Shown here: positions 20,334 through 50,637 of the stretch, piece after piece
Numbering within the stretch: the stretch's first letter is position 1
Layout: the number at the start of each line of letters is the position of its first letter
NCBI GenBank assembly: GCA_016208165.1
Contig: JACQYL010000025.1
Coordinates: 22,501 to 86,500, forward strand
DNA: 64,000 nt
Origin: Deltaproteobacteria bacterium
Lineage (GTDB): Bacteria > Desulfobacterota > Desulfarculia > JACQYL01
Reading direction: 5' to 3'
Position numbers and translations under genes: made by a program
Notes under the pieces: model-generated
What the model was told of the DNA's origin: nothing
The model's input: the letters and a program-made list of their open reading frames with translations, nothing else
The model's database searches: none

Positions 20334-23147
20334 CTATAACAATTCCTTCAGGAACGTGCCCGTATGGGATTCGGGTACGGAAGCAATCTCTTCCGGTGTT
20401 CCGGACGCCACCACGTAGCCGCCCAGATCCCCGCCTTCCGGCCCCAAATCAATGATGTAATCCGCGGACTTGATCACGTCCATGTTGTGTTCGATGACCA
20501 CGACCGTATTTCCCTTTTCGACCAATCGTTTCAACATGTCCAGCAGCTTCCGGATGTCGTCGAAATGCAGCCCGGTAGTGGGTTCGTCCAGAATATAGAA
20601 AGTACGGCCCGTATCCCTCTTGCTCAGTTCTTTGGACAGCTTGATCCTCTGCGCCTCCCCACCCGATAGCGTGGTCGCCGGCTGGCCGAGCTTTACGTAA
20701 CCCATACCCACGTCCTGGAGCGTTTTCAGCTTGCGCCGGATGTTCGGAACAGCCTCGAAAAACCCTGCCGCCTGGTTGACGGTCATGTCCAGAACTTCGG
20801 CGATGCTCATTCCCTTGTACGTAATCTGCAGCGTCTCGCGATTGTAACGTTTCCCCTTGCACACGTCGCAGGTGACATACACGTCCGGAAGAAAATGCAT
20901 CTCGATTTTGAGCACGCCGTCGCCTTGGCAGGCCTCACACCGGCCGCCTTTGACATTGAAGCTGAATCTCCCCGGCTTGTAGCCCCTGGCCCTGGATTCG
21001 GGAACCCGCGCAAACAAGTCCCGGATAAACGTAAATACACCCGTATAGGTGGCCGGATTCGATCGCGGGGTACGGCCGATGGGGCTCTGATCGATGTCCA
21101 CCACTTTGTCGATGTTCTCGATCCCCTTGATTTCTTTGATCTTTCCCACCGATTCCCGGGAGCGGTTGATCCTCCGCGCCAGATGACGATAGATTGTTTC
21201 TATGACCAGGCTGCTTTTGCCCGAGCCGCTCACCCCGGTTACACACGTAAACACGCCCAGGGGAAGGCGCACGTCTATGTTTTTGAGATTGTTGTGTTCC
21301 GCCCCGACGAATTCGAGAAACCCTTTCCGCTGTTTCCGGCGTTTCTCAGGGACCGGAATCTCAAGTCTCCCGGAAATATAATTGCCCGTCAGAGAGGTCT
21401 CGCACTGCTGCAGGTCCTCCGGAGTCCCGCTGAACACCACTTCTCCGCCGCTCAGACCCGCCCCCGGTCCCATATCCACCACGTGGTCGGCGCTGAGTAT
21501 GGTATCCCGGTCATGTTCCACCACCAGTATCGTGTTCCCCAAGTCCCGCATGTGAAGCAACGACTGGAGCAGCTTTCGGTTATCCCGCTGATGGAGGCCT
21601 ATGCTGGGCTCGTCCAGAACGTACAGCACGCCCGACAAGCGCGATCCGATTTGAGTCGCCAGTCGGATGCGCTGCGATTCGCCTCCGGAAAGGGTTTCGG
21701 ATGACCGGTCCAATGTCAGATAATCGAGCCCCACATCCACTAGAAAGTGAAGGCGGTCCTTCAATTCCTTGATGATGCGCCGGGCAATCCGCTCCTCCGT
21801 CGGATTCAGCTCCCATTCGTCCAATGTTCTCAGACAGTCTTTGATCGTGAGCCGGGTGAGTTCGTAGATGTTCAGATTTCCGACCCGAAAGCCCAGGCTT
21901 TCCTTTTTCAAACGGGCCCCTTGGCAGAGATCGCAGGGTCGTTTGTTCATGAAACGTTCCACTTCCTGGCGCACGTACGATGAATCCGACTCGAGATACT
22001 TTCGCTTCAGCCGATTGACGGCGCCTTCGAGGGGGCTGTTATACCTGTATTGGCTGCCGTTGGTCTCCAATTCAAACTCGATCTTCTCGTCACCGCTTCC
22101 ATACAGCAGCGCGTGTTGAACTTGTTCGGGGAGATCCTGGAACGGGGTCCAAAGGTCGAAATGGAAGTGGTTGGCAATGGAAACCATTCTCTGATGAAAA
22201 AAGATGGAATTTTTCTTCGCGTAGGGTTCCAGAGCCCCTTCACGGACGGAAAGCGAAGGATCCGGCACCACCAGATCCGGATCCACCTCGAGCTTCATGC
22301 CCAAGCCCTCGCATTCCGGACAAGCCCCCAGCGGGCTGTTGAACGAAAACATGGCCGGAGTCGGATCCGGATAACTGATGCCGCACGTATGGCATACCGC
22401 GTGTTCGCTGAAAAACAGTTCCTGTTTCCCGTCCACCTGGGCGATGACCGTTCCTCCGGACTGGCGCAAGGCCAACTCCAATGAATCCGTCAGCCGATTC
22501 TTGATCTTGTCGGTGATCACCAGGCGATCCACCACCGCTTCGATGGAGTGCTTCTTGTTCTTGTCGAGCTGAATGGGTTCGCCCAGATCCCGGATCTCGC
22601 CATTGATGCGGACTCGCACGAATCCGTCCGCCTGGAGATGATCCAGGAGTTTCTGGTGTTCTCCTTTCCGCTTTTCCACTAAAGGGGCCAGAATCACCAC
22701 CCGTGATTTCTCGGGAAGCTCCGCGATGCGATCGGCGATTTCCTGAACGGTCTGGCTGGCGATCGGGCGCCCGCATATGTAGCAGTGGGGTCGTCCGATA
22801 CTGGCGTACAAGATCCGGAAATAGTCGTAAATTTCCGTAACCGTGGCCACCGTGGATCGAGGGTTCCTGCTGACGGTTTTCTGTTCGATCGATACGGCGG
22901 GTGAAAGACCGTCAATGTATTCCACGTCCGGTTTTTCCATCTGCTCGAGAAACTGACGGGCGTATGCGGACAGCGATTCCACATACCTCCTCTGCCCTTC
23001 CGCAAAGATGGTGTCGAACGCCAAGGATGACTTTCCCGATCCACTGACTCCGGTAATGACCACCAGACGATTACGGGGAATTTCGAGATTGATATTCTTG
23101 AGGTTGTGTTGTTTGGCGCCCCGGATACTGATTTTATCTACAGCCAT
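20334..23147 (-). CDS. uvrA: UvrABC excinuclease subunit A
   Basis: About 937 residues, full length. UvrA finds bulky DNA lesions and loads UvrB. The first ABC ATPase has Walker [17 protein letters not shown], the UvrB-interaction region follows, and the first zinc module spans CHTCGISY to CPECEGLG. The second half has [18 protein letters not shown] (signature), the second Walker [14 protein letters not shown], the second zinc module CEACQGDG...CDVCKGKRY, and [14 protein letters not shown] chose the ATG at 23147 ([11 protein letters not shown]); an earlier in-frame TTG at 23156 is less likely. The start overlaps the end of pdxA, so the two are co-transcribed. Confidence 0.97.
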
Positions 23148-24186
23148 GAACGGCAAAACCTGCTTTCTTTCGATTTTCAGCCATGAGAGCCGCTGCTTTG
23201 ACGGCCTGGATCAAACTCCTGGGATCCGCCTTTCCGGCGCCGGCAATATCATAAGCGGTTCCATGATCCACCGAGGTGCGAACAATGGGGAGTCCCAGAG
23301 TGACGTTGATACCATCCGAAAAATGCAGCAATTTCAGAGGGATCAAGCCCTGATCGTGATACATGCAGACCACGGCGTCATAGCTTCCCCTCGCCGCCTT
23401 CACGAAAACGGTATCGGGAGGAAGCGGTCCGTCCGCATCCATGCCCGCTTCGCGGGCTTTCTCAACGGCCGGAACGATGATATGCATTTCCTCGTCGCCG
23501 AAAAGGCCGCCTTCTCCGGCATGAGGATTGAGTCCGGCCACGGCCAACCTGGGACGATGGATGCCGAAATCCCTCTCGAGTCCCCGATACGTGATGTCCA
23601 TGGTTCGGTAGATCGATTCCACCGACAGCCGCGCGGGCGCCTCCCGCAAAGGACAGTGGATGGTGACCAGTGTGACCCGAAGTCGCTCGCCGGCCAGCAT
23701 CATAACGTAGTCCGGCGCCATGGTAAGATAGGCAAAAAACTCGGTGTGGCCGGGAAACGGGTATCCGGCCAGGCGCAAGCCTTCCTTGTGAATGGGGCCG
23801 GTGGCCACGCCGCCGATCACGCCTTCCATAGCCAGTTTGGCCGCGGTTTCGATGTAGATCCCCGACGCCTTTCCGGCGTCCTTGCTAACCCTGCCCATTG
23901 GCGCGCGACGGCCCACGTCATCGGTCAGTGCGTAAAAAAGGAGGTCTTCGTCCGCTGCCTGGAGCTCATCCATGGAGGCAACTTCCTTCAAGTCGGGTCT
24001 GGCATCGAGACGCTCCATGGCGTTCAGCAATGCCGAGCGATCTCCCAATACCACCAGCCGGCAGACGCTCAAAAGGCTACGCTCCTGCAGCGCCTTCACA
24101 GCTATTTCGGGACCTACGCCGGCCACATCCCCCATGGTAAGACCGATCAGCGGTCTGTCCAATATTCGCCCCTCCCGGTTTCCCAT
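23134..24186 (-). CDS. pdxA: 4-hydroxythreonine-4-phosphate dehydrogenase
   Basis: About 350 residues. PdxA oxidises 4-phosphohydroxythreonine in DXP-dependent pyridoxal-phosphate synthesis. Seen here: [18 protein letters not shown] at the N-terminus, [24 protein letters not shown] with a metal His, [15 protein letters not shown], and [16 protein letters not shown] with the second metal His. The ATG at 24186 ([10 protein letters not shown]) is preceded by aggggaat; the ATG at 24213 would place that ribosome site inside the gene. The 3' end overlaps uvrA. Confidence 0.95.
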
Positions 24187-25534: not shown

Positions 25535-28500
25535 TCACCGCGTCACTTCCAGGGTCCCGCTCCTGCTGACGGCCCGGATTTGCGGGTGATAAAACCCCTG
25601 GAGCACGGCGGGTCGCACATGGAACGCGCCCGGCGATTCCGCCCGCAGCACATATTCCAGCCTCACCTCTTCTCCCTCCGCCAACCGGTCGAAGAAGAAC
25701 GCCACGCGCTGGTCGTGGCGTTCCTTCCACAGGTAGGACGGCCACCAGGATGTCTCCTCCTCCGCATCAAAGTGTACGGTTTCAAATCCTGCCGGCAGGT
25801 AATCCTCGAGGACAAAATACCGGTACTCGCGATCCGCGGTAAACGACAGTCGGACCAAGGCCTCGTCCCCCGGATGCAGTGGTCCGCTCAACGGCATGGC
25901 GAGCACCCTGGGCCGGTTTTGGCTGTCCAGTATTCGAACAGCCTTGTGGATCGTTTTATCGAGGGCCATAGCACACTGCAGGGACTCGGGTTCCTCGAAG
26001 GGCCGTTCGTCAAAGCCGTCCACCTGAACCGCATAATATAGTTTGGACGTATGATCGCTCGATAGGGAAAACACATTCTCACCGTGCGCGAAATGTTGCC
26101 CGTCGACTTCGAGGACGGCGCCTTTTTCAAGCATGAATTCCTTGGCGGAAAAATCGATACCGCCCACCGGCTTTCCATTCAGCTGAACGGAAAGCACGCC
26201 CCGATCCGGACCGACCAGTTCGGGCCGGACCTCGAGGAGCTTTGCCAGAGCCACCAGCACAAGCCCCGTGGCTCTCGTCGATTCCCATTGCATTCCCTGT
26301 CTTTGACTCAGGAGCCAGTCCCCGAGCGCCGTCAATCTCGAATCCCGGGCCGCGGTTTCGGCCAATGCCAGGAGACAAAACGCGTTCTGTTCCACCAAAG
26401 TGGACCCGAGAGCCTCGGATCCGGGAACTTCAAAGTGCAGGCCCAAGGGATCGGATACCTGGAACCGTTCGAGGGCGGCCAGCGCCCGGTCCGATGCGTC
26501 CGGCAGTCCGTGCCGGGCTGTGATGACCATGCACATGGCAAGATCCGGAGGATCCATGTTGGCCACATCCCAGGTCAGGTTCTCCGCCGCCTCCCTGTTG
26601 CGATACGTTCCCGTTGTCAGCGCGAACAACACGAACCGCCTCAGACCGGGGCTCCGCTCCTGTTCGAGAAAACGTTCCAGGGCCTCCTGCATGGACTTAA
26701 GCGTATTCTGCAGATCCTCATCACCCAGCGAACGCACGGGGTACAGCGCAAAATAGGCCAGGGCCGTCAGGTAGGGGTCACCCTCGCCCATGGGGCCCCA
26801 TTGGACGCTTCCGTCGTAAATGAAGGTCTCAAGGCGATCGACGCCTTCTTTGAAGCGGGCTTCAATGCGCTCCCGGCGGGGTACGGGGATGCCCATTCGG
26901 GTGTATGTCTCCAGAAACACGGACATGGGCAAAAAGGAATTCAGGGTTTGCTCGGCGCACCCATAGGGGAACTCGAAAAGATACGGAATGGCCGTCAGAG
27001 CCGCAGCAGCCGCGCGACCGGTACCGCTGATCCGAGCCCGAATTCGTTTTAGTGAGACCGTTTCCGGAATCCGGAGGGTGGTTTGGCCGGACCCGCCTTG
27101 CATCCATCCGGATACTCCCAATTGGACCGGCACACCGATGCTTTCGATGGGAATCACTCGCTTTTCGGAGTCCGTTGCTTGATCCGCCGAAACCATCGCC
27201 AGCACTTCCGCGCGAAGATCGTCCTTTGCTTTAACGTACCATTCCGCCCGGGCGGTGCCTTCCGGCGGCAGGGACAGTCGCCTCACGGGCTCCGCCGGCG
27301 GCTCGACTGCTCCATCCGTTTTCAGTTCCGCACGAACCTGCTCCATCGGCTCGTCCGTTCGATTGGTAAGAATCGCGGAAAGGCCGATTCGATCTCCGTT
27401 CACTAGGAACCGCGGCACTCTGAGAGAGGTCACCAGCGGTTTGCTCGAGAGGGTTTTGGCCCGATTGAGTCCGAATCTGCCGTCACGGGTATGTCCCAGC
27501 AGCGTGGCACGCCACGTGGTCAGGTTGTCGGGCATTACTAGCCGAACCGTACCCGCGCCCGAAGGCCCGATCTCGAGGTGGGGAACCCATAGAGCCGTAT
27601 CCCGAAACTCGGACCTGGCCCTCTGGTCTCCCTGCTCTTTGGTGGCCCCTCCGATGAATCGCAAGGGGAAGGAGTAGGAAGTGGAAATCCACGGAGGACG
27701 TTTAGCGAAAAAGAAGTCCGCCGGTTCGGGGGTCTCATCCCTGCGCAGACGGTACAGCGATTCGTCCACGATTCCGACGCTTACGTCCGCGGACACGGGT
27801 TTCTCGTTCGAGTCCGAACATCGTATCGTAAGCACGGCCACGTCTCCGGGCTGATACTCCTTGCGGTCGAAGATTCCCTCGATCCGGATGTCTTTGGATT
27901 CCACCGGAACATTCAGGGACACATGATGATAGTGCAATTGTTTCCCGTTGTGCGTCAGTACGCTCAAATACACGTTGGGGGCATACTCGGCCTTCACAGG
28001 GACCTCAATCACCATCGAACGGCCGGGCATGGAAACCCGTTGATGAAAAAGGATATCTTCGCTTTCCCCGGTGAACAGCAGCTCCGCGTCCGGAATCGAG
28101 GAATGGATCATTAAGCGGGCCGTTTCTCCGGCGCGATACGAGTCTTTATCCAGCATCAGCTCCAGAGGACGATAGTCATATTCGGCTGAAAAGGACCGCT
28201 CCGAGTACACCCACAACGAGCTTCTTGCCAGGGCCTGGTTGCCCCTCGGATCCACCGCGGTCACTTTGAGGTCCGCCCTACCGGGTTTCACGGAGTCCAG
28301 GGGAATTTCCGAGCGTACAATGCCGCCGGGACCGGTGACTTCACGCCCTTGCCACAGCGGAGTCCGGCCTTTCTCATACTCGCGTCGAAGCGGATTCCAC
28401 ACGGCCTGGTCCAACGAAATCCGGAGCGAAGCGTCGGGCACCGGTTTCCCGTCCAGATCCGTCAACCGAATCCTCAGAACGGCGGTCCCCGGGGTACGAT

Positions 28501-30748
28501 ACAGGCTTCGTTCCGACTCGGCCCGGATTCTGTACAGGCTTTGTTCGTAAGAGACTTCCGTTCGCTCGGATTCGATTCTCCCGGACGGTGAGGTTACGTC
28601 CGCTTCCACGGTGATGGTGCGGTCGTATGACCTGGGTCCCGGCGTCACCTCGAAACCGAAGAAGCCCTGCATGTCCGTGGAGCCGCTTCCCTGCTTAATC
28701 AGTCGCTGGTATCCCGCGGATTCATAGTACGATTGTTCCCACCACGCGGTGGCCGGAGGGGTCGCGCTTATGCGCTCGAAGACCCGATATCGGATGGGAG
28801 CCTGCTGAAGAGGGGCCCCCATAAAAAAGCGCGCCTCGATCTTCACGGAAATACGGTCTCCGGATACATAGGCCGCGCGATCCGGGCGCACGATAATCGA
28901 AAAATCCGGCTTTCGATAGGCCTGGACGGAAAAGGTCGCATGACCGATCCCAAAACCCTTGACAGAAAGGGTATGGTCCCCCAGGCGGGGCTCCTTTTCG
29001 AGCTGAACCACCCCATGCACGGTTCCCCATTCATCCGACGTTTTTTCTTGAGAAAAAACCATGCTTCCGTCCGGGTCTGAAAGCTCGACGATTACCCGAG
29101 TTCCTTGGGGAGCGGCCTGCAGTTTCCCGTCTTCGAACTGTTTGAGAAGGGCCTTATAATACACTTGTTGTCCGGGCCGATAGATGGGGCGATCGGTATA
29201 AAGGAGCGCTTTTCGGCCCTCCGCCGAGGCGGCTCGTGTCCGGAACGCGCTGGACACGGCCAGTCCCAGTTCCGCTTTCATGGCGATCACCGTGATTTCA
29301 CGATCCGGTTCGGTCAGCCGATGAAAGAATACGCCCGTGGCGTCCGTTTGTCCCGTGGCCACGGCGGCGTCCAACCCAAAAACGCTCATGATCTTCTGAA
29401 ACAGGGACTGCTCCGTTTCGGACTTCTCGACTCCTTCGGCAAGGACGTACACGGGCACCCCCGGCTCCGCCTGATTGGGCTCGAGATTCATGGCGTACAC
29501 CAGCAGGTCGGAGTTGCCCCTCTTGGTGGCCAGGCCCAGATTCGATATGAAAATCGAGTGACGGGCTTCACTCGAGGCGCCGGCCACTCGAAGCAGGTAC
29601 ACTCCGGGGCTGATGAATTTTTTGATTTCGATTTCTTCGTTGGCCCACGAAAAGGGACGAAAACGCCCAAACGCGAACGGCTGCGTGTGAATCCGTTCGA
29701 ATGGCTCCAGCGGCGCCCCGTTCGCAAGAAGCGATTTCAAACCGCGAGGATGATCGAGAAGCCATTTCTCGGGAACGCGGTACATTTCCACATCCGCGGC
29801 TTGAACGTTGAATCCTCGGACAACGAACTTGATCGGTTCTTTCAGGGTGTATACGTCCTGGTAAATAGCCAGAAGTACTTTTGGGGGGGCGGAGTCCAGC
29901 CGGAGTTCCAGGCCGTCGACGTCCTCGCCTTCATTCACAAGAACGACCGGCGCCGCGCCTGCAAGCGAGAACTCTTTCGTATCTTCACCGATCCGATACC
30001 GCCCGGGACGCAGATCCTCCAGCCGGAAAGTCCCTTCAAGGTTCGAATCGGAGCGATGTACGGCGGGTCCCTCCGCGGTGACCGCCACATTGAACAACGG
30101 CGTCCCGTCAACTTTCAATACCACCTTCCCTGTAACGGACGCCGGACGGTACAACGTCACGTTCAGATCCGTTGATTTTCCCGAACGTATGAATACGTTG
30201 CTGATTTCTTCGGGAATGTATCCTTCGGTCTCGATCTCGAGTCTGAACGCGCCTTCCGGGATTCCTTCCACGACATAATTCCCGTTGTCGTCCGTCTCCC
30301 GCTCGAACCGGTTCACGAGGTATGGTTCCGGAAACATCTGCGTCAGCGTCATTCGGGCCCTGGGTAACGGGAGGCCCGCGCTGTCCGCTATGCGGCCCTC
30401 GAGAATTCCTCCGGGCGGCAGAGCGACTCGCAACGTGGATTCCACGGACCCCATACCCGGCTCCCAGTAAGCCATGCGCATCGTGGAATATCCTTTTGCC
30501 TGTGCCGTTAAATGAAATCTCACCCCCACGGGCAGATCCGGGAAATGAAAGCCGCCTTCCTTGTCGGTGAACGCACGGGAATAACCGGAGCCGCCTGAAG
30601 CGTTCTCGATCTCCACGAGGGCGCCGGCGATACCGGTTTGCGTCAGCTTATCGACCACCACCCCGTTCAGTTCGAGCTGCCCTGCGTAAACCATCGAAGA
30701 GGCCCACGCCAGAACCCACACAAGCCATGTGCTGCACTTCCGAGTCAT
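25535..30748 (-). CDS. Bacterial alpha-2-macroglobulin family protein with thioester motif
   Basis: 1737 residues, exported (signal peptide ending AWASSMVYAG). The N-terminus has three carboxypeptidase-regulatory-like beta domains (about 23-270; e.g. GALVEIENASGGSGYSRAF and LRLEIETEGY-like repeats). Macroglobulin MG domains follow, including YTDRPIYRPGQQVYYKALLK and the ALWVPHLEIGPSGAGTVRLVMPDNLTTWR block. The reactive thioester motif is YGCAEQTLNSFLP, Cys1264 to Gln1267, intact. A thioester-domain helical barrel and a receptor-like C-terminus complete it. Such proteins are thought to trap proteases in the periplasm. The usual partner gene pbpC is absent; instead an AMMECR1-like gene overlaps the start by four bases and a vanW-like gene lies before that. 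Confidence 0.93.
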   Translation of the reverse strand: MTRKCSTWLVWVLAWASSMVYAGQLELNGVVVDKLTQTGIAGALVEIENASGGSGYSRAFTDKEGGFHFPDLPVGVRFHLTAQAKGYSTMRMAYWEPGMGSVESTLRVALPPGGILEGRIADSAGLPLPRARMTLTQMFPEPYLVNRFERETDDNGNYVVEGIPEGAFRLEIETEGYIPEEISNVFIRSGKSTDLNVTLYRPASVTGKVVLKVDGTPLFNVAVTAEGPAVHRSDSNLEGTFRLEDLRPGRYRIGEDTKEFSLAGAAPVVLVNEGEDVDGLELRLDSAPPKVLLAIYQDVYTLKEPIKFVVRGFNVQAADVEMYRVPEKWLLDHPRGLKSLLANGAPLEPFERIHTQPFAFGRFRPFSWANEEIEIKKFISPGVYLLRVAGASSEARHSIFISNLGLATKRGNSDLLVYAMNLEPNQAEPGVPVYVLAEGVEKSETEQSLFQKIMSVFGLDAAVATGQTDATGVFFHRLTEPDREITVIAMKAELGLAVSSAFRTRAASAEGRKALLYTDRPIYRPGQQVYYKALLKQFEDGKLQAAPQGTRVIVELSDPDGSMVFSQEKTSDEWGTVHGVVQLEKEPRLGDHTLSVKGFGIGHATFSVQAYRKPDFSIIVRPDRAAYVSGDRISVKIEARFFMGAPLQQAPIRYRVFERISATPPATAWWEQSYYESAGYQRLIKQGSGSTDMQGFFGFEVTPGPRSYDRTITVEADVTSPSGRIESERTEVSYEQSLYRIRAESERSLYRTPGTAVLRIRLTDLDGKPVPDASLRISLDQAVWNPLRREYEKGRTPLWQGREVTGPGGIVRSEIPLDSVKPGRADLKVTAVDPRGNQALARSSLWVYSERSFSAEYDYRPLELMLDKDSYRAGETARLMIHSSIPDAELLFTGESEDILFHQRVSMPGRSMVIEVPVKAEYAPNVYLSVLTHNGKQLHYHHVSLNVPVESKDIRIEGIFDRKEYQPGDVAVLTIRCSDSNEKPVSADVSVGIVDESLYRLRRDETPEPADFFFAKRPPWISTSYSFPLRFIGGATKEQGDQRARSEFRDTALWVPHLEIGPSGAGTVRLVMPDNLTTWRATLLGHTRDGRFGLNRAKTLSSKPLVTSLRVPRFLVNGDRIGLSAILTNRTDEPMEQVRAELKTDGAVEPPAEPVRRLSLPPEGTARAEWYVKAKDDLRAEVLAMVSADQATDSEKRVIPIESIGVPVQLGVSGWMQGGSGQTTLRIPETVSLKRIRARISGTGRAAAAALTAIPYLFEFPYGCAEQTLNSFLPMSVFLETYTRMGIPVPRRERIEARFKEGVDRLETFIYDGSVQWGPMGEGDPYLTALAYFALYPVRSLGDEDLQNTLKSMQEALERFLEQERSPGLRRFVLFALTTGTYRNREAAENLTWDVANMDPPDLAMCMVITARHGLPDASDRALAALERFQVSDPLGLHFEVPGSEALGSTLVEQNAFCLLALAETAARDSRLTALGDWLLSQRQGMQWESTRATGLVLVALAKLLEVRPELVGPDRGVLSVQLNGKPVGGIDFSAKEFMLEKGAVLEVDGQHFAHGENVFSLSSDHTSKLYYAVQVDGFDERPFEEPESLQCAMALDKTIHKAVRILDSQNRPRVLAMPLSGPLHPGDEALVRLSFTADREYRYFVLEDYLPAGFETVHFDAEEETSWWPSYLWKERHDQRVAFFFDRLAEGEEVRLEYVLRAESPGAFHVRPAVLQGFYHPQIRAVSRSGTLEVTR

Positions 30749-39179: not shown

Positions 39180-39704
39180 ATGTATAGTCAGACCGTGATG
39201 GACCATTTCAAGAGCCCTCGGAACGTGGGTGAAATGAAAGACGCCGATGGTGTCGGCGAAGTGGGAAACCCCCTGTGCGGCGATATGATGACGTTGTATA
39301 TCAAAGTGAAAGACGACCGGCTCGACGACGTCAAGTTCCTCACCTTTGGATGTGGAGCCGCCATCGCTGTTTCCAGCATGATAACGGAAATGGCCAAGGG
39401 GAAGACGATCGAGGAAGCAAAAAAAATAACCAACAAATCCGTGGCGGACGCACTTGAAGGCCTCCCCAAGAATAAACTTCACTGCTCCAATCTGGGCGCC
39501 GACGCCTTGCATCTGGCCATAAGCGACTATGAACGCAAGAGAGACGGAAAACCCGCGCCCAAAGCCGAACGCGTGGAGCCATTGGAACACGATCACGATG
39601 AGCACTGCTACTGCCCGTACTGCGATGCGGACGTTACAGATGATATGGAATACTGCGCGGCATGCGGCAAGAAAGTGAAAAGCGGGGATTTCCCGGTAAT
39701 ATAA
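39180..39704 (+). CDS. iscU: IscU/NifU-type Fe-S scaffold with C-terminal zinc ribbon
   Basis: 174 residues from the ATG at 39180, preceded by an aaaggag ribosome site. The IscU fold is clear: MDHFKSPRNVGEM, NPLCGD with Cys33 and Asp35, FGCGAAIAVSSMITEM with Cys58, and HCSNLGADAL with Cys102. These are the three Cys plus Asp that build a 2Fe-2S cluster. Beyond residue 130 a His/Asp-rich linker leads to a short zinc ribbon (CPYC and CAAC) that ordinary IscU lacks. It is directly followed (72 bases) by a cysteine-desulfurase homologue and a DUF364 gene. Confidence 0.92.
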   Translation: MYSQTVMDHFKSPRNVGEMKDADGVGEVGNPLCGDMMTLYIKVKDDRLDDVKFLTFGCGAAIAVSSMITEMAKGKTIEEAKKITNKSVADALEGLPKNKLHCSNLGADALHLAISDYERKRDGKPAPKAERVEPLEHDHDEHCYCPYCDADVTDDMEYCAACGKKVKSGDFPVI

Positions 39705-39776: not shown

Positions 39777-40955
39777 ATGAGCATCATTAATTTGGATCAT
39801 ATATCCAGCACTCCGTTAGCGCCCGAAGTGCAAAAGGCCATGGTGGACGCCATTCATAAAAACTATGGCAATCCTTCCAGTCAGCACCAACTGGGGGACG
39901 AGGCGGCCGAAGCGCTGCAAAAGGCCCGGGAACAGGTGGCGCGACTCATCAACAGCAAAATGGACAAGGAAGTGGTGTTTACTTCCGGGGGCACGGAATC
40001 CATCAACCAGGCCATAAAGGGTGTTGCCCTGGCTAAAGCGGACAAAGGCAAGCATATCGTCACTTCCAACATCGAGCACAACGCGGTGTTGCGTTCCCTG
40101 AGAAGACTCAGAATGCTCGAGTACCAGGTGACCTCCGTGCCCGTGGACGAGTACGGCCGAGTGAATCCCAAAGACGTGGCCGACGCCATACAGGACGACA
40201 CCATTCTCGTAACCATCATGCACAGCAACAACGAGATCGGAACAGTGCAGCCCATCGAGGAAATCGGAAAGATCACCCGAGAGAGAAAGATCCTGTTCCA
40301 CAGTGACGCGGTGTGTTCCGTGGGGGTTGTGCCCGTTGACGTGCAAAAACTCAAGGTGGATCTGTTGAGCTTCGCAGCCGGTCAATATTACGGTCCCGCA
40401 GGAGTGGGGGGACTGTACATCCGTCAGGGTACGGGATCATGGCCGTTGCTCGACGGCGGGGTGCAGGAAAACAACAAGCGCGCGGGTACGGAAAACCTCA
40501 TCGGGATCATTGGCATGGGCGTAGCGTCCGAGTTGGCCGCTCGACAGATGGACCGGCGCATCGAGCAAACGCGGAAATTGAAAGAAAAGTGCATACAGGG
40601 GTTAAAAGACCGCATAGACGATGTCATTATCAACGGCCATCCGGAACTTTCCCTGCCGAATCTGGTCTCCGTGTCCATCAAGTATATCGAGGGCGAAGGC
40701 ATTGTCCTCATGCTGGATGAGCAAGGCATAGCCGTATCCACCCGATCGGCTTGCGCCGCCGGGGCGCTCCAGGCGTCGCATGTGCTTCTGTCCATAGGAA
40801 GGGAATTCGCGGACGCTCAAGGAACCCTCGTGGTGGGTTTCGGCGCCGAGAATACGGAGGCGGATGTGGATCGCTTTCTGGACGCACTGAAGGTAGCCGT
40901 GGACACGTTGCGAAGCATGTCGCCCCTGTATCGAAAGGCCGTGGCGAACGCATGA
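39777..40955 (+). CDS. Cysteine-desulfurase (NifS/IscS) homologue lacking the PLP lysine
   Basis: 392 residues with the overall class-V aminotransferase/NifS sequence: INLDHISSTPLAPEV, FTSGGTESINQAIKG, SNIEHNAVLRSLRRL, HSNNEIGTVQPI, and the mobile-loop STRSACAAGA with catalytic-type Cys326. The PLP segment, normally SxxHK(x)YGPKG, is here SFAAGQYYGPAG: the HK pair is Gly202-Gln203, so no Schiff base can form. The Gln of the DAxQ motif is also changed, to Cys in HSDAVCSVG. The rest of the fold is well kept, so it is not a decaying pseudogene. Archaeoglobus fulgidus IscS is a known homologue lacking this lysine. It likely pairs with the iscU upstream. Its stop overlaps the next gene by four bases. 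Confidence 0.9.
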   Translation: MSIINLDHISSTPLAPEVQKAMVDAIHKNYGNPSSQHQLGDEAAEALQKAREQVARLINSKMDKEVVFTSGGTESINQAIKGVALAKADKGKHIVTSNIEHNAVLRSLRRLRMLEYQVTSVPVDEYGRVNPKDVADAIQDDTILVTIMHSNNEIGTVQPIEEIGKITRERKILFHSDAVCSVGVVPVDVQKLKVDLLSFAAGQYYGPAGVGGLYIRQGTGSWPLLDGGVQENNKRAGTENLIGIIGMGVASELAARQMDRRIEQTRKLKEKCIQGLKDRIDDVIINGHPELSLPNLVSVSIKYIEGEGIVLMLDEQGIAVSTRSACAAGALQASHVLLSIGREFADAQGTLVVGFGAENTEADVDRFLDALKVAVDTLRSMSPLYRKAVANA

Positions 40956-41677
40956 ATGACCTTTACGACGTTTTGAAAGAACGGGCTCTGGCATTATGGA
41001 AAGCCGCCCGAATCCTGGAGGAGCCTGTAACCGTTCGGGCCGTGGCCCTAAGCACGGAGGAGGCCATCGGAAATCCGGAAGCCGACGATTTTCCGCTTCA
41101 GAAAGGCAAAGAGCGACTGATGCAGGCCGACTTCGGCCGGGGTTCGGGACAGGCCTTCACGGACCGGTTCGGGGACTTCGAAGGAACGCTGAAAGAGGTT
41201 CTGGAAATGCCTCTGGAAAACAACTATCGCCGCGCCGTTTTCATCGCCACGCTGAATGCCGCGCTGCGCCATATGGGACAGGTGCGGGGAACCGTCCACT
41301 GCAGGGATCAGGAACCGAAACAGTGCGCCGCGGAACTGGCCGCACAGATCAAGAACCGCTTCGGCCGGGTCAACATCGGCCAGGTGGGATTTCAGCCCCG
41401 TATGGTCGAGTCCCTGGCGTCGGAATACCCCATGCGCCTTCTGGACCTGGACCCGGACAACGTGGGCGGCCGGAGGTTCCAGGTGTTGGTGGAAGGTCCC
41501 GAAGCCGCGGACGACGTGATTGCATGGGCCGATCTGCTGTTGGTTACCGGCAGCACACTGGTCAATCGGACCATTGAACGATTCCTGGGCAAAAAGCCGG
41601 TTCTTTTCTACGGCACCACCGTTGCAGGCGCCGCGCATCTCATGGGCTGGGACCGCTTCTGCGCCCGCGGGCACTAA
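40952..41677 (+). CDS. DUF4213/DUF364 family protein
   Basis: 241 residues from the ATG at 40952, overlapping the NifS-like stop by ATGA. The N-terminal DUF4213 part contains LENNYRRAVFIATLNAALRHMG, the C-terminal Rossmann-like DUF364 part has VNIGQVGFQPRMVESLASEYPMRLLDLDPDNVG and ends VLFYGTTVAGAAHLMGWDRFC. The family is linked to metal or radical cofactor contexts, but its activity is unknown. Translational coupling to the lysine-less NifS-like gene suggests a shared Fe-S or metal task. Confidence 0.88.
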   Translation: MNDLYDVLKERALALWKAARILEEPVTVRAVALSTEEAIGNPEADDFPLQKGKERLMQADFGRGSGQAFTDRFGDFEGTLKEVLEMPLENNYRRAVFIATLNAALRHMGQVRGTVHCRDQEPKQCAAELAAQIKNRFGRVNIGQVGFQPRMVESLASEYPMRLLDLDPDNVGGRRFQVLVEGPEAADDVIAWADLLLVTGSTLVNRTIERFLGKKPVLFYGTTVAGAAHLMGWDRFCARGH

Positions 41678-46986: not shown

Positions 46987-49900
46987 TCAGCCTTTGATTT
47001 TCTTTGATAGCTCACCGGCATTGAGACATCCAACTTTAGCCAACCTTTCGCAAAGTTGTTTCAGCAAATCGGCGGGGGCTTCGGAAGAAACGACTTGGTC
47101 CGTCAATTCTTCGAGATCCCTGCAAAAATATCTTGGAACATCGGTATATGATATCAGATGAATCAAGTACCTGCACATGGCCTCAGGATAGCGAACAGAG
47201 AGACCGCTTTGCCCTTTTTTCATGCGGTGAAAGACCGAAGTATGCTCTAGTGTAGGAACCCTGCCCTCGCAGATGACGTCAACCACCTCGGGAAAAACCG
47301 GTTCCAGCTCGCCCGCCCATTCGACCATCCGATTGAGCTCCCCCTCAGAAAGCGACAACGGCACCCCTTGATTTCTGGCCTCCCAATATCTTTTCAACCA
47401 TCGTTGCCAGAGTCCGGTTTTAGTGTCATCTTTCATGTTGAAGAGACGGTTCCCGAGATGCGATGCGAAGATAGTCCGGTCTTGCTCCTCAGCTTTTTCC
47501 AAAAAATCGAATAACCAATTATCCTCCAACGGATTGTTTATTCCAAACAGTGAGATGACAACAACATGCTGTACAAATGGTTCCCTTTTTCTCTCTAATT
47601 CAGATGAAAGATGTGAGAATGCGTTTCGATAATGGGGTAGGAGTTCATCTAGCACGGGGGCCAAAGGCCGTCCCCAAGTGAGCCACCCCTCCCAGGCTTG
47701 GCGAGCCTGCTTTGCCCCTTTATTCCAGTCAAATAGTGGAACAATGTTTTCACGCGACCAGACTTCATCGAGGAAGGACAGAAACCCTAACTGGCTGGCG
47801 AGGATGACCCGACCCAATGCCCCAGCCTCGGTCTTGGCATCGATAATCGTGTTGAACCGATCTTTGTACGGCTGGATCAATTCCAGCTTCTTTCCTCCGT
47901 CCTTCTCTTGGGATTTGGTGAGAGCATGACACCAGAACAAGGGTAGCTTTCCGGCAGGGTGATTGATCGCTTTCATTACCCAGTCATTACCCCCCTCGTC
48001 TTCCTTATCCTCAAGAGTGCTCCAGACTTTCTCGGCGACCTCATCGGCTTTGCCAAGCAACGAGACTGGTATTCCTCCACTTTTTTTTTGTGCACCGTGT
48101 TCCAGCAGGTCTGAGATATCATCGGCACGATGCCTTGCCAGTCCCCGCACTTCCTGAGAAATCGAAAGAATGAAATCCCACTCTTCCTCTGACAGTTCCG
48201 TACTCCTCAGCCCGCTAAAGACACACTCCCAGAGATCCAAAGTTGGATCGTTTTTTTCAATGAGGCATCCAACGAGTTCTTTTCCCCAACTGAGATCCAG
48301 CGCAACGGCCTCTCCGATCATCTTGAGTAGTCCATTCCGATCTGGTCCCCTGAAATCATCCCCAACATAAGTCACAAAATCCTCCATCCACTCCTGCGGA
48401 TGTATTTCAAGTAGTTCATTCACGGATAAGGGACTTCGGGGGCCAGACCAACTTGCTCCAGACAGCCAAAAAGCCAGATCAGGATGTTCTCTGGGCCGGA
48501 AGTCGGGGAATTTAAGCTTAATTTCGTCCAATCGAGTCCTTACTTCTTCACATGATGGATCTGCTGAAGATAACCAGATGAATAAATTGAACTTCTTGTA
48601 TTCCTTTCCGTCCTTATCCCGCTTATCTTCCTCGGGAACCGAATCTATCTCTGTTATCGCGGCATCCAGAAGTGCTAGGCGTAACTCGGCACCAACCTTT
48701 GGATAGGCTTGTTTCAATAATTGGAAAACCTCGTGCTTCAATCCTGTGGCCATCAGAAAACCTTTCTCAAGCAGCCACCGTACCTTTTCCGCAGGAGTCA
48801 GGCTGTTGGTGATTGAAATGCCATAGATTGCCAAACGCTGTAAAATCTGCGAATCCATAGCCGCCAGGCTTTCAATCCATGCGCGTCCAATAGGTTCATG
48901 AGTGTGAAGGGCCCACTCCAGACAATCCCTTGCCGCGTCAATTAGGACATCCATACTACTCGGGTATTGATCTTGTTCGTGGTGCTCGATGGATGAGCGT
49001 TCCAAACTCAGAGGATCCCATTGCGGTGATGCCTTTCCCCATACATGGAGGAGTTCGTAAGCTTGGCAGATGTTCCGTATGATATTTGGCCAAAGAGGAA
49101 TCGCCAGATCTGCGAGTCTAGGACGGAGCTTTCCACTCCAAAGCTCTTGCAGGTGAAGATGAACATCTGGAAATTCAACTTCCACATCTACTACATTCTC
49201 TTCTTTCTGTTCTTCATCCAGCAAGTTGAAAGGTTTTTTCAGCTTTAGGCGGGGCTCTGTGAGGTGCGCAAACAACAAGGTAGCCGCATTGATGGCGTCT
49301 AATTCAATAGCCCGTTCCAGCAAGATGACAAACGACAAGCCGGGCTGGTAATTCACAGAAGCGCTATTTTGCACCAGAATTAGAATCCATCGAGTAATGG
49401 TTTCCTTATTAGGGGACGGTTTCCTATGAGCAAGCTGTCTGGCGATCTCCGAAACAAAAACATCGTTCAGCGCCGTAGGGTAACGCCCCAGTATGCAGAA
49501 AACACTTTCAGGATGGTCTGCCGCGAAATCCTCGGCAACCCACACTGCCAGCTCCCACTCCCGTTCGGAAAGGTCTTTTGGTGAAAATAAGGAATCCAAC
49601 AGCTTATGGTCGGCAACCCATTTCAGCCACTCCGGTTCTTTCGCGTGACGTACGAAAAACCGCAACGCAATTCGATCTTTGGTCGCCCAAAGCAAATAAC
49701 CTTGAGACTCCGGGTCCAAAGGAGGTTCTCCCTCAACGAGTTCCGCTATGCGTTGTTCCGTATCCAATGCGCCACGGTTTGCCAAATCAGCCCAGCCGGC
49801 AACTGACACGTCCAGATTTGAGTGATCTATTCCATCCATCAATAAGGAGTATGATAACGGATCAATACCGCGATACCGCCATTCATCCATGTTGGCACTC

Positions 49901-50637
49901 GCGTCGACCAAGGCAAAGCGAGTCCCAGTTCTTTCGGGCGGCAACCCACGCGAAAGGTAATGCATTATAGTATCGTTGTGGCTGTAGCCCACGAACAAGA
50001 CCGTGTATCGAGAAAACATGGAAAAAAGAAATCGGGTGGCCCAGCCCTCTGTTAAATAGGCCCGGCCGAAATCTTGGTCCGTCAGAATAAGTTGCCTTGA
50101 ATCGTCGAGAACACTGCCATGCAGGTAAACGAGCCCGTGAAAATCATGCCCTAAAGGCAGAGCAGGACCTTTGAAAACCTCAGGGGCTTTTCCATACACA
50201 TCCTCTGCGGCCGTTTGTAAATGGGTGTCAAAGTTAGTGGTGACCAAACGAACCCGATTTATGTCGCTGAAAAGCCTGAGGAGGTCTTCGTGTAGCCCTT
50301 TTGGTTTCGACGCTGAATCGGAAAGTAGATGCTTTACTCGCTCGTGAACAGGGAAATCACGCCGAACGAGTCTGCCAAAGTAGTATTCGATGGGTTCATC
50401 ACTCTTGATTTTGTCACGGGCCAGCTTACCGATCTCTTCAGCCAGCTCCTTAAAACTCGGATAATTTGATGGTGGCCCCATGGAAACGCCGGCTCCGGCG
50501 AAAACCACCAACGATCCTTCGCGTTGAGCCGCCAGCAAATGGTCGTCAAAGTCGACCCCCTTAATTCTCATCACAATTGACCCCCGAGATAACTGCCACT
50601 CTTTGCGTCTAAATATTGAAGCCGTTTTTGACAACAT
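46987..50637 (-). CDS. Large SIR2-domain protein, probable anti-phage defence (DUF4020-like C-terminus)
   Basis: 1216 residues. The N-terminal SIR2 domain (about 28-290) has the NAD-binding AGAGVS (residues 47-52), TTNFD (133-137), the catalytic-type His173 in VYLHGS, and FVGYSHNDTIMHYL. It lacks the zinc-finger Cys of deacetylase sirtuins and is of the SIR2_2/NADase type. The remaining 900 residues are Trp/Leu-rich and helical, consistent with HEAT-like repeats, ending in a DUF4020-like block (MVEWAGELEPVFPEVVDV to the C-terminus). This layout matches defence-associated sirtuins that deplete NAD on infection. The gene is visibly A+T-richer than its neighbours (20 G+C in the 60 bases from 48541), a sign of transfer. 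The ATG at 50571 (MRIKGVDFDD) is an alternative start. Confidence 0.85.
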   Translation of the reverse strand: MLSKTASIFRRKEWQLSRGSIVMRIKGVDFDDHLLAAQREGSLVVFAGAGVSMGPPSNYPSFKELAEEIGKLARDKIKSDEPIEYYFGRLVRRDFPVHERVKHLLSDSASKPKGLHEDLLRLFSDINRVRLVTTNFDTHLQTAAEDVYGKAPEVFKGPALPLGHDFHGLVYLHGSVLDDSRQLILTDQDFGRAYLTEGWATRFLFSMFSRYTVLFVGYSHNDTIMHYLSRGLPPERTGTRFALVDASANMDEWRYRGIDPLSYSLLMDGIDHSNLDVSVAGWADLANRGALDTEQRIAELVEGEPPLDPESQGYLLWATKDRIALRFFVRHAKEPEWLKWVADHKLLDSLFSPKDLSEREWELAVWVAEDFAADHPESVFCILGRYPTALNDVFVSEIARQLAHRKPSPNKETITRWILILVQNSASVNYQPGLSFVILLERAIELDAINAATLLFAHLTEPRLKLKKPFNLLDEEQKEENVVDVEVEFPDVHLHLQELWSGKLRPRLADLAIPLWPNIIRNICQAYELLHVWGKASPQWDPLSLERSSIEHHEQDQYPSSMDVLIDAARDCLEWALHTHEPIGRAWIESLAAMDSQILQRLAIYGISITNSLTPAEKVRWLLEKGFLMATGLKHEVFQLLKQAYPKVGAELRLALLDAAITEIDSVPEEDKRDKDGKEYKKFNLFIWLSSADPSCEEVRTRLDEIKLKFPDFRPREHPDLAFWLSGASWSGPRSPLSVNELLEIHPQEWMEDFVTYVGDDFRGPDRNGLLKMIGEAVALDLSWGKELVGCLIEKNDPTLDLWECVFSGLRSTELSEEEWDFILSISQEVRGLARHRADDISDLLEHGAQKKSGGIPVSLLGKADEVAEKVWSTLEDKEDEGGNDWVMKAINHPAGKLPLFWCHALTKSQEKDGGKKLELIQPYKDRFNTIIDAKTEAGALGRVILASQLGFLSFLDEVWSRENIVPLFDWNKGAKQARQAWEGWLTWGRPLAPVLDELLPHYRNAFSHLSSELERKREPFVQHVVVISLFGINNPLEDNWLFDFLEKAEEQDRTIFASHLGNRLFNMKDDTKTGLWQRWLKRYWEARNQGVPLSLSEGELNRMVEWAGELEPVFPEVVDVICEGRVPTLEHTSVFHRMKKGQSGLSVRYPEAMCRYLIHLISYTDVPRYFCRDLEELTDQVVSSEAPADLLKQLCERLAKVGCLNAGELSKKIKG

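Follow-up and report, generated by a model that had tools for sequence, protein, structure and literature searches.

A lysine-less NifS/IscS paralogue encoded beside a zinc-ribbon IscU is conserved in Desulfobacterota

In the open-licence literature that was searched, IscS proteins without the catalytic Lys are on record from two archaea only. The first is the IscS of Archaeoglobus fulgidus (PDB 4EB5, 4EB7 and 4HVK; D199K mutant, 4R5F), which has the NifS/IscS fold and IscU as its partner. It carries Asp in place of the Lys, has no desulfurase activity and provides a Cys ligand to the [2Fe-2S] cluster on IscU (PMC7585200). The second is IscS1 of M. acetivorans. This protein lacks the Lys and occurs together with an active IscS2 in the same genome, and its authors suggest a role similar to that in A. 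fulgidus (PMC7585200). Two further systems show the use of sulfide. In E. coli delta-iscS, H2S feeds clusters on IscU when oxygen is absent (PMC13015791), and the archaeal Fe-S system SMS (SmsCB) has no cysteine desulfurase and obtains its sulfur from sulfide (PMC12192291). The minimal ISC system (MIS), made up of IscS and IscU, was described with a cysteine desulfurase (PMC12192291).

We analysed a stretch of 64,000 nucleotides (the window) that contains a lysine-less NifS gene. The features of the locus were as follows.

39180..39704 (+): iscU, a NifU_N-type Fe-S scaffold of 174 aa with a C-terminal zinc ribbon (NifU_N 3e-49; TIGR03419 above cut-off)
39606..39665 (+): zinc ribbon of IscU, C143-x-C145-P-Y-C148...C159-x-x-C162 (conserved Cys, Zn_Ribbon_1)
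39777..40955 (+): lysine-less NifS/IscS homologue, 392 aa (Aminotran_5, PF00266, 4e-75)
40314..40316 (+): Cys180 replacing the PLP-contacting Gln (E. coli Q183), DAVCSVG for DAVQxxG
40380..40385 (+): Gly202-Gln203 replacing His-Lys (E. coli K206), from translation and alignment
40752..40754 (+): mobile-loop Cys326 (E. coli C328), retained; SAC(Cys326)-A intact, in 53/53 members with sequence there
40830..40832 (+): Val352 replacing the substrate-carboxylate Arg (E. coli R354); Arg present in 89/89 Lys-bearing sequences of the comparison and in 0/64 of the clade
40952..41677 (+): DUF364 gene, overlapping nifS by ATGA (PF04016 2.7e-10)

The 392-aa protein is a class V aminotransferase by sequence family (PF00266 4e-75) and likewise by fold. 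Its best NCBIfam match was TIGR03402 (nifS) with 448 bits, which is under the equivalog cut-off of 531. The AlphaFold2 model had a mean pLDDT of 88 and was less confident at residues 226–239 and in the mobile loop (325–331). TM values of the model against structures of human NFS1 and A. fulgidus IscS were 0.90–0.96. For A. fulgidus IscS, the TM was 0.90–0.92 on the query, with 42–44% identity in the fold alignment. The nearest PDB sequences were seven near-identical cysteine desulfurase chains (9wep, 9wew, 9wfe and others), differing by point changes.

The segment 'LLSFAAGQYYGPAGVGG' lines up with the canonical LLSxSGHKxYGPKGVG, so that the Lys corresponds to Gln203 and the His to Gly202. The original prediction had stated that the PLP Lys and the preceding His were lost, that the Gln of DAxQ was replaced by Cys and that the loop Cys and the fold were retained. 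The translation and the structure comparison confirmed each of these points. That list lacked a further replacement, namely Val352 at the position of the S-x-R-x-S/T-x-G Arg. Moreover, an Arg was gained in the loop (Arg323), where TRSAC replaces the Gly of SGSAC. With the Lys, His, Gln and Arg all gone, the usual desulfurase chemistry would be impossible, as had been proposed. No clade-specific Lys able to take the Schiff-base role was found when the clade was aligned with Lys-bearing IscS. The sole invariant Lys of the clade, K81, is also the commonest residue at this position in Lys-bearing IscS, and a replacement Lys elsewhere can be dismissed. Compared with NifS/IscS desulfurases (TIGR03402, TIGR02006), the fold, the loop Cys and the IscU partner gene are shared; the window protein differs by the missing catalytic Lys, His, Gln and Arg and by scores under the equivalog cut-offs.

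The distribution was determined in 395 sampled genomes of the phylum. Genomes with a protein of ≥55% identity were counted as carriers, which gave 50. Together with class-level hits, 54 species were obtained, and this number is a lower bound. Among 40 relatives, five orthologues had 60–71% identity; below that, the identity was ~43% and HK was back. Loss of the Lys across Desulfobacterota, which had been left to be checked, was found in all of these at least 54 species. Position 203 was Gln in 39, Pro in 9, Thr in 4 and Ile in 2. At position 202, Asn replaced the His in 53 of the 54 species, Gly was peculiar to the window genome, and neither Lys nor His occurred in any. Cys326 was present in all 53 orthologues with sequence coverage there. 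As positions 203 and 180 both vary freely, a new catalytic residue in the place of the Lys is improbable.

The absence of several catalytic residues in the window copy could be put down to gene decay or to an error in the sequence at 40371–40385. Because the orthologues of 53 other species carry the same loss and none of them has Lys or His there, an error is refuted. In close pairs, dN/dS was 0.05–0.17, and many residues were invariant, which speaks equally against decay. The chance that the gene is an artefact of either kind is thus negligible. The lysine-less family is conserved and under purifying selection.

The residues that hold the PLP ring in IscS (H101, N152 and D177) are invariant in the clade, so that cofactor binding is possible. 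In addition, the K206A mutant of E. coli IscS has no desulfurase activity but continues to bind some PLP (PMC9978102). Both observations would fit a repurposed enzyme that binds PLP or PMP non-covalently and performs another chemistry. Such an enzyme would, however, be expected to fix its reaction-site residues, and positions 180 (D/A/V/T/C) and 203 (Q/P/T/I) vary freely in the clade. The substrate Arg is lost as well. We therefore regard a repurposed enzyme as improbable.

The losses at the active site were concerted. In 64 sequences of the clade (clade I; some genomes were counted from two collections), H202, K203, Q180 and R352 were each found in 0/64, and all four were present in 89/89 Lys-bearing sequences. 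A Lys-bearing sequence of the Nitrospirae MAG SZUA-242 (L135) was left out of the 89-sequence comparison as transitional. This sequence keeps HK, has Gln changed to Cys and Arg changed to Gln, and falls close to where the Lys-less clade begins. The tree was built from 145 sequences. Clade I reached an SH-aLRT of 100 in it, also after the active-site columns had been masked. All Lys-less forms had one origin in the best tree of these sequences (support 88). This single origin did not hold up, as masking left the basal rows unresolved (three changes); only clade I was solid (100).

Lys-less forms were also found outside clade I. A third Lys-less group (L180, L228, L300 and L302) had the motifs SGISLGAPKG, SGASLGAPKG and SGPALGGPKG and the loop TGSACASKAL. 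Five more Lys-less NifS (L133, L134, L137, L154 and L176) belonged to Omnitrophota, Chloroflexota and unplaced MAGs. No IscU was found near these five within the sequence stretch examined at each.

In 54/54 loci, an iscU gene adjoins the lysine-less nifS on its 5' side and is read in the same direction, which bears out the predicted coupling. The gap is usually 3–60 bases and larger in a few loci. In the window, a ribosome site (AAAGGAG) is located immediately 5' of the iscU ATG at 39180. The order iscU-nifS differs from that of the Lys-bearing two-gene loci compared, which is nifS-iscU. As in MIS, the two genes form a unit without carrier genes; the difference from MIS is a NifS that is predicted to be inactive.

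The assembly-site residues of IscU (C33, D35, C58, H101 and C102) were invariant in 20/20 homologues. The same holds true for C145, C148, C159 and C162 of the ribbon, and C143 was found in at least 90%. Zn_Ribbon_1 matched 14 of the 20 members weakly (E≤0.01), with the window IscU just under the Pfam cut-off. At 41 loci with a Lys-bearing IscS, the adjoining IscU was plain and had no ribbon. The remaining Lys-bearing loci had a full NifU or an IscU with another short Cys-containing tail. Hence, among the loci compared, the fusion of IscU and ribbon was seen only with Lys-less NifS and never beside a Lys-bearing IscS. A strict rule that equates the zinc ribbon with Lys loss was rejected: the third Lys-less group has a plain short IscU wherever an IscU was observed (L180; L268 beside L228). 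The ribbon therefore characterises clades I and II and is not a condition of Lys loss. From its sequence, the CxxC-CxxC ribbon is a clade-specific addition to IscU. At a guess, it may serve in metal or electron delivery or in client recognition (possibly of DsrAB). No account of a zinc-ribbon IscU or of a Lys-less IscS in sulfate reducers was found in the open-licence literature, and an earlier description elsewhere is possible.

The original prediction had also included DUF364 as a third partner in a conserved trio. This part did not hold, as the gene lies beside the pair in the window only (1/54 loci) and was not found beside nifS in the 53 other loci. Relatives of the window DUF364 mostly adjoin CobS-, MoeA- (molybdopterin-type), YqeB-like and ABC-transporter-like genes, with neighbours named by eye from the sequence. 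DUF364 was accordingly rejected as a functional partner and is probably a local neighbour outside the iscU-nifS module. In one genome (G092, L205, 1495–2758, minus strand), a DUF364 relative was found downstream of a divergent NifU_N-like gene of 147 aa. DUF364 relatives may thus be linked to NifU-like proteins elsewhere.

The lysine-less family is found mostly in sulfide-producing bacteria. The gene dsrA was present in 46/50 carriers versus 149/345 other genomes of the 395-genome sample, in counts that ignore kinship; four carriers had no dsrA. Inside one family (f57), dsrA was found in 6/8 carriers and in 0/6 others. At two loci (L084 and L090), dsrA and then dsrB followed directly downstream of the iscU-nifS pair. 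At a third (L095), dsrA followed directly, up to the contig end. As the three loci belong to sister lineages, they may represent one event. At L084, the dsr genes are in turn followed by a gene for a cobyrinic acid a,c-diamide synthase. The window genome contains dsrA, in line with the sulfide-rich setting that had been assumed. No SUF core protein was found in it; the scaffold of SMS, which is of the SufBC type, is unrelated to the one described here.

Apart from the lysine-less protein, the window genome encodes two NifS-type paralogues that retain HK, and a full-length NifU is encoded next to one of these; the canonical Lys-bearing NifS/IscS of this genome is C87. Under a strict definition, the HK motif was present in 46/50 carriers. 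As these have a normal NifS/IscS, the lysine-less protein is usually an addition and not a replacement, and the idea that it replaces the canonical enzyme was ruled out for most carriers. Of the remaining four carriers, G020 has another class V protein with HK. In G301 (a 95% complete draft), two Lys-less NifS occur together with a SufB-type protein, and there is no canonical desulfurase. In G069 (85% complete), the Lys-less protein is present and a desulfurase with the Lys is lacking.

The fourth, G258, is a dsrA-positive draft with 99% completeness and 1% contamination in which the Lys-less pair is retained. Neither a desulfurase with the Lys nor a SUFBD core was found in it; besides the Lys-less NifS, only a phosphoserine transaminase and distant relatives were present. 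What is left of a canonical nifS is a fragment with a broken reading frame (L230, C45:116369–116641); related genomes have intact copies. Among relatives of G258 from other families, enzymes with HK are the rule. If a finished G258 genome agrees, the Lys-less pair is its sole recognisable Fe-S assembly unit, one weak NifU_N match aside.

These genomes bear on two alternative roles. In a persulfide relay, Cys326 of an enzyme-dead carrier would take sulfane sulfur from a canonical NifS or from polysulfide and hand it to the zinc-ribbon IscU. The invariant Cys326 and SACA loop agree with this, as does the canonical NifS/IscS of 46/50 carriers, the window genome (C87) included, which could load Cys326. 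G258 keeps the pair without a canonical desulfurase, however, as do the less complete drafts G069 and G301, and no sign of a donor docking site was found. A relay appears unlikely on balance. Alternatively, NifS* (the lysine-less NifS) could be a regulatory decoy that binds IscU and withholds it from, or competes with, the canonical NifS. The two-gene unit and the canonical NifS alongside it in most carriers would suit a decoy. Its partner is a distinct zinc-ribbon protein and not the canonical NifU, though, and a decoy would have no canonical NifS to act against in G258, which makes this role very unlikely.

The A. fulgidus protein, cited as a lysine-less precedent with IscU, proved to be a real one (PMC7585200). 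Clade I has the same features: the Lys is missing, the loop Cys is kept and the gene is encoded with iscU (54/54). It differs in the residues at the Lys position (Gln/Pro/Thr/Ile, where A. fulgidus has Asp) and in the Asn for His. It also differs in the lost substrate Arg, the gained Arg323, the zinc-ribbon IscU and the bacterial hosts. M. acetivorans IscS1, archaeal and likewise a Lys-less paralogue beside an active enzyme, can be likened by description only, and the accessible part of that description mentions no zinc-ribbon IscU (PMC7585200).

Given A. fulgidus IscS, the action of H2S on E. coli IscU and the use of sulfide by SMS, a docking, Cys-ligand subunit working with sulfide is the best-supported reading. 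By sequence and analogy, the protein is thus probably, with considerable room for doubt, a non-desulfurase NifS/IscS paralogue that forms the structural half of a sulfide-fed IscU-NifS* Fe-S assembly complex and supplies a Cys ligand. The Lys, His, Gln and Arg of cysteine desulfuration were lost together, and purifying selection kept the fold, the loop Cys and the adjoining iscU. By comparison with A. fulgidus IscS, a NifS* dimer would dock two IscU, and Cys326 would reach in to bind the [2Fe-2S] cluster as it forms. The distribution in dsr-bearing anaerobes, in which free sulfide is plentiful, suggests that this sulfide would be the main sulfur source and not cysteine-derived persulfide. More tentatively, and with the odds somewhat against it, zinc-ribbon IscU and dead NifS may form a desulfurase-free bacterial ISC that uses sulfide, is dsr-linked and is the sole Fe-S system of some sulfidogens (G258).

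In many Desulfobacterota, Lys-less IscS thus forms a family that is conserved, under selection and apparently under-described, and Chloroflexota and Omnitrophota contain other lineages without the Lys. Annotation pipelines are likely to label these proteins as cysteine desulfurases, which would mislead reconstructions of sulfur metabolism. The family offers bacterial test systems for the question of whether sulfide can feed an ISC scaffold when the role of IscS is purely structural, as a provider of a Cys ligand. Genomes with an apparent loss of the canonical NifS would allow a direct test of a sulfide-run ISC.

Three other genes of the window, all on the minus strand, were recorded. A 1216-aa SIR2-domain protein (46987–50637) matched PADLOC Dsr1 models (E 4.6e-86) and is a candidate defence-associated sirtuin. 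The gene at 25535–30748 encodes a bacterial protein similar to alpha-2-macroglobulin that contains carboxypeptidase-regulatory repeats, and the gene at 20334–23156 encodes a UvrA-type protein.
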